Shown here: in pieces, positions 30,261 through 35,855 of the stretch | How positions within the stretch are numbered: position 1 is the first letter of the stretch | Layout of the letters: the number at the start of each line of letters is the position of its first letter | Assembly: GCA_028870715.1 (NCBI GenBank) | Contig: JAGWOZ010000007.1 | Coordinates: forward strand, 1-37,999 | DNA length: 37,999 nt | Source of the DNA: Betaproteobacteria bacterium | GTDB taxonomy: Bacteria; Pseudomonadota; Gammaproteobacteria; Burkholderiales; Burkholderiaceae_C | Reading direction: 5' to 3' | Position numbers and translations under genes: made by a program | Notes under the pieces: generated by a model | What the model saw: the letters and a program-made list of their open reading frames with translations, nothing else | Database searches by the model: none | Told to the model about the DNA's origin: nothing

Positions 30261-30500
30261 TCAACCAGCAATGCGATGGACCAGCACGGTCAGGGCCGTA
30301 ACGATGACAGCAGCCACGATGACGCCGGCCACGATCACGTGGTGCAGCTGGAGCATGGCAAAGTCTCGCTCACGGTCCTGCCGCCGGCGCAGGCCCACCA
30401 TCGCGGTGGCAACCGCCCCCAAGGCGCGCAGGGTGCCGCGCAAAAAGCCGACCTTCGAGCCCGCCCTGGCTTGCTGCATAGAGGTGGATTGGACCGTCAC
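30261..30500 (-). CDS. DUF2970-like small membrane protein
   Basis: GTG start at 30500 overlapping the DAHP synthase stop by 4 nt (GTGA); ...LRRRQDRERDFAMLQLHHVIVAGVIVAAVIVTALTVLVHRIAG with a single C-terminal TM. Confidence 0.7.
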   Translation of the reverse strand: MTVQSTSMQQARAGSKVGFLRGTLRALGAVATAMVGLRRRQDRERDFAMLQLHHVIVAGVIVAAVIVTALTVLVHRIAG

Positions 30501-31624
30501 TTGCGCTTGCGCCGGGCCTTCACTCCGGCGGCGAGCACTTCAATGAGGTCGACCGACGCATTCCAGGGCAGGCAGCCATCGGTAATGCTTTGCCCGTAGG
30601 TCAGACTGCCAGGAGCATCCTTGCCCGGCGTGAACTTCTGAGATCCTCCAACCAAATGACTCTCGACCATCACGCCAAAGATGCAGCGCTCTCCATCGGC
30701 CAGTTGGGCGGCGATGTCGCGTGCCACGTCAAGCTGGCGCTCAGGCCTCTTTTCGCTGTTGGCGTGAGAGCAATCAATCATGAGCCTGCACTCGAGCTTG
30801 GCGGCTTCCAATTGCTCGCAAGCTGCACGCACGCTTGCTGCGTCATAGTTCGGTGTCTTGCCTCCGCGCAGGATTACGTGGGTGTCCTTGTTGCCGCGCG
30901 TTTGCACAATGGCCACTTGACCACTTTTGTGAACGGAGAGGAATGAATGTGGACGTCGCGCCGCCTGGATGGCATCGATGGCGATTCGCAGATTGCCGTC
31001 GGTTCCATTCTTGAATCCGACCGGTGCGGACAGCCCGGACGCCAACTCCCGATGCACCTGACTTTCCGTGGTGCGTGCACCGATGGCGCCCCATGAAATC
31101 AGGTCGCCGATGTACTGCGGCGAGATCACATCCAGGAACTCACCTCCCGCCGGCATCCCGATGCGGTTGATGTCGATGAGCAGCTCGCGCGCAATGCGCA
31201 GACCCTCATCGATACGGAAGCTCTGATCGAGATAGGGGTCGTTAATCAACCCCTTCCAACCGACGGTCGTGCGGGGCTTTTCAAAATACACGCGCATCAC
31301 GATCTCGAGTGCCCCTGCGTGCCTCTTGCGCTGCTCAAGAAGGCGCTCCGCATATTCCCGCGCCGCCTTTGGATCGTGGATCGAGCAAGGCCCAATCACG
31401 AGCAACAACCTGTCGTCCTCGCCCTGCACGATCCGGTGCACGGCGCGGCGCGTGTCCTGGATCAGCCGCTCAACCGGCGTCCCGGCGATCGGGAAAAACC
31501 GGATGAGATGTTCAGGGGGTGGCAATGGCGTGACGTCCCTAATGCGTTCGTCGTCTGTCGCCGAGGTTTTCTCGGGTTGGGCGGCGCGCCACTCAGGCAA
31601 AGCGCTCGACGACTTCGATGGCAT
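30497..31624 (-). CDS. aroG: 3-deoxy-7-phosphoheptulonate (DAHP) synthase, AroG/F/H type
   Basis: LLLVIGPCSIHDPKAAREYAERL...MRVYFEKPRTTVGWKGLINDPYLDQSF...GARTTESQVHRELASGLSAPVGFKNGTDGNLRIAIDA...IDCSHANSEKRPERQ; start at 31624 chosen for its AGGAG; the ORF extends to 31690. Confidence 0.95.
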   Translation of the reverse strand: MPSKSSSALPEWRAAQPEKTSATDDERIRDVTPLPPPEHLIRFFPIAGTPVERLIQDTRRAVHRIVQGEDDRLLLVIGPCSIHDPKAAREYAERLLEQRKRHAGALEIVMRVYFEKPRTTVGWKGLINDPYLDQSFRIDEGLRIARELLIDINRIGMPAGGEFLDVISPQYIGDLISWGAIGARTTESQVHRELASGLSAPVGFKNGTDGNLRIAIDAIQAARRPHSFLSVHKSGQVAIVQTRGNKDTHVILRGGKTPNYDAASVRAACEQLEAAKLECRLMIDCSHANSEKRPERQLDVARDIAAQLADGERCIFGVMVESHLVGGSQKFTPGKDAPGSLTYGQSITDGCLPWNASVDLIEVLAAGVKARRKRK

Positions 31625-31730
31625 GGCGGTGGCTCCTGTCGTGTTGGGTTGATCGGAAAATTCCCGAAACAATGGGTCGTCGTGGAACATGGCGGGCTTG
31701 CTCGTTGCGGAGTGCCACCCAATCCCGGCG

Positions 31731-31763
31731 AAAAAAAACCGCCGGACTTGGCCGGCGGTTTTT
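31731..31763 (-). terminator. Intrinsic terminator (candidate attenuator) in the aroG leader
   Basis: Minus strand AAAAACCGCCGG-CCAAGT-CCGGCGGTTTTT-TTT: 12-bp perfect stem, T8 tract, located before aroG. Confidence 0.9.
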
Positions 31764-31777
31764 GGGGATTCGTTGAT

Positions 31778-31855
31778 TCAGGCTGAACGCTGCCCTCTCC
31801 CTCCGCCGGCGCGGTGCGAGAACCAAAAATAAAAGCCAAACGCGAAACTGTACAT
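31778..31855 (-). CDS. Aromatic-rich leader peptide MYSFAFGFYFWFSHRAGGGRGQRSA
   Basis: ATG TAC AGT TTC GCG TTT GGC TTT TAT TTT TGG TTC TCG CAC CGC GCC GGC GGA GGG AGA GGG CAG CGT TCA GCC TGA; codons 2-12 contain 5 Phe, 2 Tyr, 1 Trp; no clear Shine-Dalgarno. Confidence 0.75.
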   Translation of the reverse strand: MYSFAFGFYFWFSHRAGGGRGQRSA

Positions 31856-31881
31856 GGCAGATTTTTTTGAGAAGGCGTCCT

Positions 31882-31911
31882 AGTGTAGCCTCGACTGGCC
31901 ACCTGGAGCAA
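31882..31911 (-). promoter_or_regulatory. Candidate sigma70-type promoter for the aroG leader transcript
   Basis: Minus strand TTGCTC-N18-TACACT, placing transcription start about 20 nt before the leader ATG. Confidence 0.45.
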
Positions 31912-32021
31912 GCGCGGCGCCCGCTGACGGCGTCTTTCCGCTTTGCTTTGGTGCAACACCGCCACCGGCTTCGCACCGGTCCTTACCATACATGCATGCA
32001 TATGGCCCCTCGGGAGTTGAG

Positions 32022-32843
32022 ATGGAAAGCCTCAGGAACCTTCAGCAATTGGGATTCGCACCTGGAAGTCCTCCGAGACTGGAAGCGCGCGCAACCGAGA
32101 TCGAGCTTCCGGAATATCACGGGAAAGACGACGTCGAATCCGAGCTTGGCCAGTTGCGCAACACCATCGGCGAGTTGCAGGACCGCATGTTCACGCGCAA
32201 GGAACTTTCGCTGCTCGTGGTGTTGCAAGGCATGGACTCAGCCGGCAAGGACAGCACGACCAAGGCCGTGTTCACGGGCATCAATCCGCTGGGCATCCAT
32301 GCGGCCTCGTTCAGCTTTCCCACGCCGCTGGAACAGCGGCACGATTTTCTCTGGCGCGTTCATGCGCATGTGCCATCGCGCGGATGCGTCGGTGTCTTCA
32401 ACCGCAGCCATTACGAAGACCCTGTGATCGCGTTCGTCCATAAACAGATCAACCACGCCACGTTCCGGCAGCACCTGACGCAGATTGCCGATTTTGAACG
32501 CATGCTCGCAGAGGATGGCACGACCATCCTGAAGTGCTTCTTGCATATCGGGTTCAACGAGCAGCGCAAGCGACTGCAGGAACGCGTCGACAATCCCAAG
32601 AAACATTGGAAATTTGATCCCTCGGACCTGTCCGAGCGCAAGCTGTGGGGGGACTACCACAGTGCTTACGAGTCAGCCCTGAGTCTGAGCAATGCCGGTC
32701 ACGCACCATGGTATGTCGTGCCCGCCGACCATAAACCCGTACGCAATCTGCTTGTGGCACGATTGGTCGTGCAAGCCCTTCAATCCATGCCCCTACGCGA
32801 ACCGTCCCCCAAACCGGAGCTGAAGGGTTTGAAGGTGCCGTGA
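32022..32843 (+). CDS. ppk2: PPK2-family polyphosphate kinase/phosphotransferase
   Basis: LLVVLQGMDSAGKDSTTKAVFTGINPLGIHAASFSFPTPLEQRHDFLWRVHAHVPSRGCVGVFNRSHYEDP...WKFDPSDLSERKLWGDYHSAYE; start could be 31992/31995. Confidence 0.92.
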   Translation: MESLRNLQQLGFAPGSPPRLEARATEIELPEYHGKDDVESELGQLRNTIGELQDRMFTRKELSLLVVLQGMDSAGKDSTTKAVFTGINPLGIHAASFSFPTPLEQRHDFLWRVHAHVPSRGCVGVFNRSHYEDPVIAFVHKQINHATFRQHLTQIADFERMLAEDGTTILKCFLHIGFNEQRKRLQERVDNPKKHWKFDPSDLSERKLWGDYHSAYESALSLSNAGHAPWYVVPADHKPVRNLLVARLVVQALQSMPLREPSPKPELKGLKVP

Positions 32844-34237: not shown

Positions 34238-35701
34238 CTAGCCCGTTCCGCCCACTGTCATCTTGTCGATGCGCAGCGTGGGCTGGCCGACGCCAACAGG
34301 AACGCTCTGCCCCTCCTTGCCGCAGGTTCCCACCCCGGGGTCAAGTTGCATGTCGCGCCCAATCATGCTCACGTGCGTGAGCACATCCGGGCCGTTTCCG
34401 ATGAGCGTGGCACCTTTCACCGGATAAAGAAGCTTGCCCTTTTCGACCCACCAGGCTTCGCTCGCGGAAAACACGAACTTGCCGCTGGTGATGTCGACCT
34501 GGCCACCGCCAAAGTTCACCGCATATAGACCACGGTCAAGGCTGGCGATGATTTCCTCGGGATCCGTGTCGCCGGCCAGCATGTAGGTATTGGTCATGCG
34601 CGGCATGGGCACATGCGCATAGCTCTCACGCCTTGCGTTGCCTGTTGGCTTGCGCTTCATTAACCGTGCATTGAGCGTATCTTGCATGTAGTCCACCAGA
34701 ATGCCGTCTTCGATCAGGACGGTGCGCTCGGTGGGGTTGCCCTCATCATCGACATTGAGCGAGCCACGGCGCTCGGCGAGCGTGCCGTCATCCAGCACGG
34801 TCACGCCCTTGGCGGCGACCCTTTGGCCCAGCTTGCCAGCGAATGCACTTGAACCCTTGCGGTTGAAGTCGCCCTCCAAACCATGCCCGATCGCCTCATG
34901 CAGCAGGATGCCGGGCCAGCCATTTCCAAGCACGACGCTCATCTCTCCAGCGGGCGCAGGACGCGACTCGAGGTTGAGCAAGGCCTGGCGCACGGCCTCA
35001 TCCACATGATGCCGCACGGCGGCCTCGGTAAATGCGCTCAAAGGGTAGCGTCCACCGCCTCCCGAGGAGCCCGTCTCGCGACGCCCGTTCTGTTCGGCAA
35101 TGACCGTGACGTTGAACCGTACCAAGGGACGCACATCGGCGGCAAGCATGCCGTCCGAACGCATGACCAGAACCACATCGTATTCACCCGCCAGACTGGC
35201 CATGACTTGGACCACGCGAGCATCCTTCGCACGGGCCATGGCGTCCGCAAGCTTCAATAGCTCCACCTTCGCAGCAGAGTCCAGTGCGGCCAACGGGTCA
35301 ATGGGCTCATAAAGCGCATGCCCGGCCGTTGTGCGTGCATCGCCCCCCAGTTTCACCCGCCCACGCCCTTGACGCGCAATGGCGCGCACGGTGTCAGCCG
35401 CTTCCATCAGCCTGGCCGCCGAAATGTCATCCGAGTACGCGAACGCCGTTTTGTCGCCCTCGATCGCACGAATCCCGAAACCTTGCTCGATCCCGAAACT
35501 CCCGCTCTTGACCAAGCCCTCTTCCAGACTCCAGCCTTCCGAGCGTGTGTATTGCAAATAGACGTCTGCATAGTCGAGCCTGTGCTCGAAAGCACGGGCC
35601 AGAGCGCCTTGCAATATTGATTCGTCAATGCCATAGGGCGTCAGGAGCAGACGACGCGCTTCATCCAGGCGCAGCACAGTGGGTTCGATCAGCATATTCA
35701 T
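34238..35701 (-). CDS. tldD: Metalloprotease TldD
   Basis: RSEGWSLEEGLVKSGSFGIEQGFGIRAIEGDKTAFAYSDDIS...LLHEAIGHGLEGDFNRKGSSAFAGKLGQRVA...GKEGQSVPVGVGQPTLRIDKMTVGGTG. Confidence 0.96.
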   Translation of the reverse strand: MNMLIEPTVLRLDEARRLLLTPYGIDESILQGALARAFEHRLDYADVYLQYTRSEGWSLEEGLVKSGSFGIEQGFGIRAIEGDKTAFAYSDDISAARLMEAADTVRAIARQGRGRVKLGGDARTTAGHALYEPIDPLAALDSAAKVELLKLADAMARAKDARVVQVMASLAGEYDVVLVMRSDGMLAADVRPLVRFNVTVIAEQNGRRETGSSGGGGRYPLSAFTEAAVRHHVDEAVRQALLNLESRPAPAGEMSVVLGNGWPGILLHEAIGHGLEGDFNRKGSSAFAGKLGQRVAAKGVTVLDDGTLAERRGSLNVDDEGNPTERTVLIEDGILVDYMQDTLNARLMKRKPTGNARRESYAHVPMPRMTNTYMLAGDTDPEEIIASLDRGLYAVNFGGGQVDITSGKFVFSASEAWWVEKGKLLYPVKGATLIGNGPDVLTHVSMIGRDMQLDPGVGTCGKEGQSVPVGVGQPTLRIDKMTVGGTG

Positions 35702-35855
35702 GGGGAGATTGTAGGAAGGGCCGCTTGCCCCCTCGGCTGGCGTGGGCAGCGCGGGCGGCAAACCGGCGGGAATACAGCACGAGCAGCCAATTTAGGTGCC
35801 GAGAGCAGGATCTGCGCCCCTTGAAATTCACGCCGCGTGCCCGCAACCGCCCGCG

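Follow-up and report, generated by a model that had tools for sequence, protein, structure and literature searches.

DAHP synthase opens the shikimate pathway and, in the textbook account of Escherichia coli, is controlled by allosteric inhibition together with repression by TyrR and TrpR. The DNA upstream of a DAHP synthase gene in a Betaproteobacteria bacterium raises the question of whether this enzyme may also be controlled by the ribosome, through the translation of a short reading frame rich in aromatic codons. The gene lies in a stretch of 37,999 nucleotides of contig JAGWOZ010000007.1 (referred to here as the window), and the first-pass annotation of this DNA had proposed a ribosome-mediated attenuator in front of it. 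We have read the locus directly and compared it with aroG loci of related genomes. The conserved ORF and terminator, the covariation of the pairing arms, the spacing of the control codons and the position of all strong matches examined in front of aroG support that proposal. The element is very probably a transcription attenuator of aroG that would respond to the charging of Phe-, Tyr- and Trp-tRNA, with conditional termination as its predicted outcome.

Anatomy of the aroG leader

The gene proposed to be regulated (30497..31690, minus strand) encodes a class I DAHP synthase; the first-pass annotation had called it a DAHP synthase, and it matches TIGR00034 (aroFGH) with an E-value of 1.8e-155. 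Its start is probably the ATG at 31624 rather than the one at 31690, because the former is preceded by AGGAG at 31637..31633 while the latter has no Shine-Dalgarno sequence. A DUF2970 ORF of 79 amino acids (30261..30500, minus strand; PF11174, E = 3.1e-14) overlaps the aroG stop codon, so the two genes are possibly cotranscribed as an operon in the source genome. Nine relatives were inspected on the downstream side of aroG, and most of them show no evident DUF2970 ORF there. On the upstream side, tldD of the window (34238..35761, minus strand) is located 2.4 kb away, with a divergent PPK2 gene (31992..32843, plus strand) and others in between; in Comamonadaceae relatives, a reading frame with a tldD-like end adjoins the leader on this side.

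Direct reading of positions 31940 to 31600 on the minus strand places the ATG of the leader at 31855 and its stop codon at 31780..31778, giving an ORF of 25 codons (31778..31855, minus strand) that encodes MYSFAFGFYFWFSHRAGGGRGQRSA* and is kept in relatives. An in-frame TAG is found eight codons 5' of the ATG, and no Shine-Dalgarno sequence precedes it. The putative control codons are codons 2–12 (31820..31852, minus strand), eight of which are aromatic (five Phe, two Tyr and one Trp). Among ORFs of 12–45 codons starting with ATG, exactly one in the window has at least six aromatic codons in 11, and this is the leader, with a terminator after it; it is also the sole one with at least eight. 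In 60 dinucleotide-preserving shuffles of the window, ORFs with at least six aromatic codons in 11 occurred at 0.05 per window, none reached seven or eight, and none was accompanied by a terminator.

The leader stop codon is separated by 14 nt from the stem of an intrinsic terminator (31731..31763, minus strand; −18.5 kcal/mol), in which 31763..31752 and 31745..31734 form a perfect 12-bp stem, AAAAACCGCCGG/CCGGCGGTTTTT, with T8 at 31738..31731. Inside the leader ORF, region 2 (GCCGGCGG, 31810..31803, minus strand) carries a GGCGG core and is perfectly complementary over 8 nt to region 3 (CCGCCGGC, 31758..31751, minus strand) in the 5' arm of the terminator. Region 3 can thus pair either with region 2, as an antiterminator, or with region 4. 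The ORF, upstream TAG, 14-nt gap, terminator and 8-nt complement had all been described in the first-pass annotation, and every coordinate and sequence proved exact. That annotation had also listed the 2:3 pairing of only 8 bp as a weak point. The 8-nt complement is confirmed, but the antiterminator can be longer, since GGGA (region 2b, 31801..31798, minus strand) is complementary to UCCC (region 3b, 31768..31765, minus strand); this possible extension also draws on a permutation test between species (see below). RNAfold assigns −25.0 kcal/mol to the antiterminator segment of the window and −15.0 kcal/mol to a possible 1:2 protector hairpin, UUCUC..CCGC/GCGG..GAGAG (31795..31822, minus strand).

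Upstream of the leader, a −35 box, TTGCTC (31906..31911, minus strand), and a −10 box, TACACT (31882..31887, minus strand), are predicted with a spacing of 18 bp. The same spacing, with TTGC(n)(n) as the −35 and TACACT or TAAACT as the −10, is found in 11/11 loci of the window's clade (L001–L011), where the −10 box lies 24–26 nt before the leader ATG. In the window it ends 26 nt before the ATG, which is not a leaderless placement, and transcription is predicted to start near 31875, leaving a 5' UTR of about 20 nt.

Conservation, codon content and covariation in relatives

The aroG relatives come from two sources, namely whole genomes within the genus, family and order of the source bacterium and named genome contigs, with a few loci representing one contig duplicated in two collections (such as L004 and L031). 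In the roughly 330 nt that precede the aligned gene, 92 of the 110 aroG loci have a short ORF rich in aromatic codons and, after it, an intrinsic terminator; the 30 nearest loci are all among these. Comparison with orthologues in other Burkholderiales, which the first-pass annotation had suggested as a check, therefore finds both parts conserved across the order. Carriers include Polaromonas, Variovorax, Acidovorax, Hydrogenophaga, Rubrivivax, Rhizobacter, Caballeronia, Burkholderia, Paraburkholderia, Massilia, Janthinobacterium and Rugamonas. Among the same 110 loci, those of Polynucleobacter, several Methylotenera and some Cupriavidus have no leader element; at L048, L060, L062, L065, L066, L102, L107 and L108, from these three genera, the aroG orthologue has neither a recognizable leader nor a recognizable terminator. 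These cases may represent either losses or replacement by another type of control. No aromatic leader precedes the paralogous, second DAHP synthase gene in the source genome (C367), nor the paralogous gene in five relatives.

Phe codons are present in 91/91 leaders, Tyr codons in 89/91 and Trp codons in 78/91, with Trp missing from most Oxalobacteraceae leaders. The idea that one switch would sense all three end products, put forward in the first-pass annotation, fits the codons of the window but extends to Trp in most, not all, of the relatives. The positions of these codons are restricted as well. Measured from its first base, the last aromatic codon sits 9–18 nt before region 2 in 86/89 leaders, most commonly 12–13 nt, and 12 nt in the window. 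At 9–24 nt before region 2, a Phe codon occurs in 89/89 leaders and a Tyr or a Trp codon in 68/89 each. Overall, aromatic codons are dense at 12–35 nt ahead of region 2, and hardly any lies nearer to it than 9 nt. If the ribosome footprint is taken to be like that of E. coli, a ribosome stalled on any of the control codons would leave region 2 free. Codon choice also differs from that of the downstream gene: TTT makes up 62% of the Phe codons in the leaders of the 91 relatives versus 18% in aroG of the same loci.

We aligned 71 leaders with MAFFT, without regard to structure, and regions 2 (inside the ORF), 3 and 4 fall in register. Their cores, GGCGG, CCGCC and GGCGG respectively, are invariant or nearly so. 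In this alignment, the 2:3 helix is paired in 96.1% of cells and the 3:4 (terminator) helix in 97.1%, values that fall to 15–68% when the partner is slid by one to three columns. At a position flanking the core, C-G is replaced by U-A in both helices in 10–11 sequences, with the three positions changing together from C-G-C to U-A-U. Pairing is kept in further variants, such as GAGGCGGU with ACCGCCUC in L087. The covariation of terminator and antiterminator that the first-pass annotation had proposed to look for is thus present, with the 2:3 and 3:4 arms co-changing in 71 relatives. In a register-free test that is inflated by relatedness, the 2:3 duplexes formed within each species are more stable than those of 1000/1000 between-species permutations, and a second helix, formed by GGGA/GAGAG after region 2 with UCCC/CUC before the A tract, likewise beats 1000 permutations under the same inflation; a negative control fails the test (69/1000). 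For the 1:2 protector hairpin, folding predicts a structure in nearly every one of the 71 leaders (mean z −1.08), column-wise covariation in the alignment is not significant, and 953/1000 permutations in the register-free test pair at least as well as the leader's own sequence. We consider this hairpin possible.

The first-pass annotation had counted the lack of an obvious Shine-Dalgarno sequence before the leader ATG as a weakness. The lack is real and extends across the clade: an anti-Shine-Dalgarno energy below −4 kcal/mol is calculated for 2% of the leaders, compared with 47% of long ORFs and 11.5% of upstream sequences after shuffling. It is a conserved property of the leaders rather than a defect. 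In 41/41 Comamonadaceae-type leaders, a −10 box that is nearly always extended (TGnTAcaTT) ends 6–8 nt before the ATG, and transcription in these relatives (L025–L072, L080) is predicted to begin on or next to the ATG, making a leaderless transcript. The distance is mostly 25–39 nt in relatives from Burkholderia and Oxalobacteraceae, while three loci from another order (L143, L168, L172) seem to have a spacing similar to the leaderless type. In Burkholderia cenocepacia and Cupriavidus metallidurans, leaderless mRNAs have been reported (PMC4603805, PMC7563307).

We also searched genomes with a covariance model built from the leaders. At E ≤ 0.01 it matches 94/300 Burkholderiales genomes and 17/276 genomes of the class, some of the searched genomes having also contributed to its training. 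Strong matches (E ≤ 4.5e-8) are located directly upstream of aroG in 34/34 cases examined; weak class-level matches (E ≥ 7e-4) have aroG directly downstream in 0/11. In two further orders of the class, 34/151 and 6/97 genomes have matches at E ≤ 0.001, and these matches had no part in the training. The 20 other-order loci examined, among them those from the class search, all precede aroG. Their leaders include MNAAATRFYWYYFPKPLAEEGLRSP, and nearly all of these loci keep region 2 complementary to region 3.

Predicted mechanism and alternative explanations

From this arrangement we infer the following course of events. Transcription would start at most a few tens of nucleotides before the leader ATG, about 20 nt in the window as predicted, and a ribosome would begin the 25-codon leader without the help of a Shine-Dalgarno sequence, with efficient translation of the leader being assumed. 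Under a shortage of charged Phe-, Tyr- or Trp-tRNA, the ribosome would stall in codons 2–12 and leave region 2 free to pair with region 3, probably extended by GGGA:UCCC. The terminator could then not form, and aroG would be transcribed. With the tRNAs charged, the ribosome would run through region 2, region 3 would pair with region 4, and RNA polymerase would stop in U8. One feature constrains how repression could be achieved. In the window, another 25 nt of the leader ORF follow region 2 and the stop codon lies beyond it, so a ribosome paused at the stop codon would clear region 2 instead of masking it. Repression would therefore have to depend either on the passage of the ribosome across region 2 or on the 1:2 hairpin, the latter in a putative protector role. 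In the place of its stop codon the leader differs from that of E. coli trp.

The same anatomy can be read in other ways. A constitutive terminator that insulates aroG from upstream transcription, next to a functionless ORF, would make sense of the strength of the stem, and a terminator is plausible after an upstream frame that ends like tldD in Comamonadaceae relatives. The gene upstream in the window is divergent, however, and the conserved promoter predicted between the upstream gene and the terminator implies that termination acts on aroG's own transcript; insulation also gives no account of the aromatic ORF, of the distance between this ORF's codons and region 2 or of the 2:3 covariation, and we regard it as highly improbable. 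Control of the terminator by a metabolite riboswitch, a T-box or a protein-binding leader would equally involve a terminator with an alternative pairing, which is present. Yet neither the window nor any of 20 relatives has a match to an Rfam family at its gathering threshold, the conserved structure is confined to short pairing arms, and conservation follows the codons, so that this explanation has next to no probability. A third possibility is arrest by the nascent peptide, as in TnaC, with the aromatic-rich peptide itself stalling the ribosome when a free aromatic compound or an intermediate is present. The peptide is indeed conserved beyond what the codons need, with the order F-Y-F-x-Y-F-W-F-S in many Comamonadaceae, but Phe and Tyr swap freely: between nearest neighbours, changes in the aromatic codons comprise 75 synonymous and 93 nonsynonymous ones, 38 of the 93 being Phe/Tyr exchanges. 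The part after the aromatic codons varies in its end length and changes by clade as the pairing of region 2 demands (PGGRE, PLADREG, SNPKAVE, PLAEEG). Since these residues track the RNA pairing, codon reading is favoured over a peptide signal, with RNA as the effector, and there is very little chance that arrest is the mechanism.

The terminated leader could also act mainly in trans, as a small RNA or as the leaderless mRNA of a small protein, with attenuation being secondary. A terminated leader of about 145 nt starting near or at the ATG would resemble the trans-acting rnTrpL of Sinorhizobium meliloti, which comes with the peptide peTrpL (PMC7298713). However, the strong cases examined all link the element to aroG, and its conserved parts are those of a cis switch, which makes a mainly trans-acting product very unlikely. 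A broader proposal adds to attenuation instead of replacing it. Here the lack of a Shine-Dalgarno sequence, which is conserved and in many relatives goes with a predicted leaderless start, would be part of the sensor, reporting aromatic tRNA charging and also how well the cell can initiate by the non-canonical 70S route. The terminated RNA or its peptide would have a further function in trans, like trpL of S. meliloti; for this combination we see a small but appreciable chance. Ribosome-mediated attenuation in response to aromatic tRNA charging is the reading with which we continue.

Comparison with known leaders and attenuators

A check for prior description, also suggested in the first-pass annotation, returned nothing from Rfam, NCBIfam or the literature searched that corresponds to this element, the nearest being aroF leaders of other phyla. 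The Rfam families Phe_leader (RF01859; 17.0 bits, E = 2.5, threshold 55 bits), Leu_leader (RF00512; 19.3 bits, threshold 50) and Burkholderiales-2 (RF02917; 22.2 bits, threshold 67.9) were considered and rejected. NCBIfam has no model for these leader peptides, and tblastn of one leader against plasmids gave no match. No description of an aroG leader element in Burkholderiales was found in the literature searched, which comprised papers available without subscription. The main texts of transcriptome papers on B. cenocepacia, C. metallidurans and Herbaspirillum do not mention aroG.

Attenuator-like leaders in front of DAHP synthase genes have been described elsewhere. In Corynebacterium glutamicum, a leader peptide with Phe-Tyr-Phe has been reported, on the basis of RNA-seq, upstream of aroF (cg1129) (PMC4046766). 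It resembles the aroG leader as far as its description goes, but belongs to an actinobacterium and is mentioned with only three control codons. The uORFC-13-1 motif upstream of aroF in Acholeplasma similarly combines an upstream ORF, having at least one Phe codon, with a terminator (PMC8632094), although the phylum and the RNA motif are different and Tyr or Trp codons are not described there. For aroF of E. coli, attenuation has been hypothesized only (cited in PMC8632094 and PMC2659441), and the hypothesis also covers aroF of Shewanella (PMC2659441). The closest parallel for the start of the leader is the S. meliloti trpL attenuator, in which the leader ORF is leaderless at the 5' end of the transcript (PMC7298713), as predicted for the aroG leaders of the Comamonadaceae-type relatives. 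In contrast to the aroG leader, it controls trpE(G), responds to Trp and is found in an alphaproteobacterium. Because it is accepted as an attenuator, a ribosome-binding site can be seen as typical of attenuators but not strictly defining.

Pooled Phe, Tyr and usually Trp codons in one leader would give a large bacterial group and two further orders a different, translation-based control of DAHP synthase. The relatives would also form a natural set of attenuators that lack a Shine-Dalgarno sequence, many of them with a predicted leaderless start. With such a set one could test whether a ribosome-binding site is needed and what each aromatic codon contributes. The element, which is absent from Rfam, could be added as a family using the covariance model built in this study.

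Judged by its sequence features, the aroG leader looks like an undescribed but widely conserved member of the classic trp/phe-type attenuators. It shares with the trp, pheA and his attenuators of E. coli a short ORF of cognate codons and a mutually exclusive antiterminator and terminator, while those attenuators have a Shine-Dalgarno sequence and read a single amino acid. The proposed pooling of several amino acids has its counterpart in E. coli ilvGMEDA, where one leader reads several amino acids of connected pathways, albeit with branched-chain amino acids and different genes.
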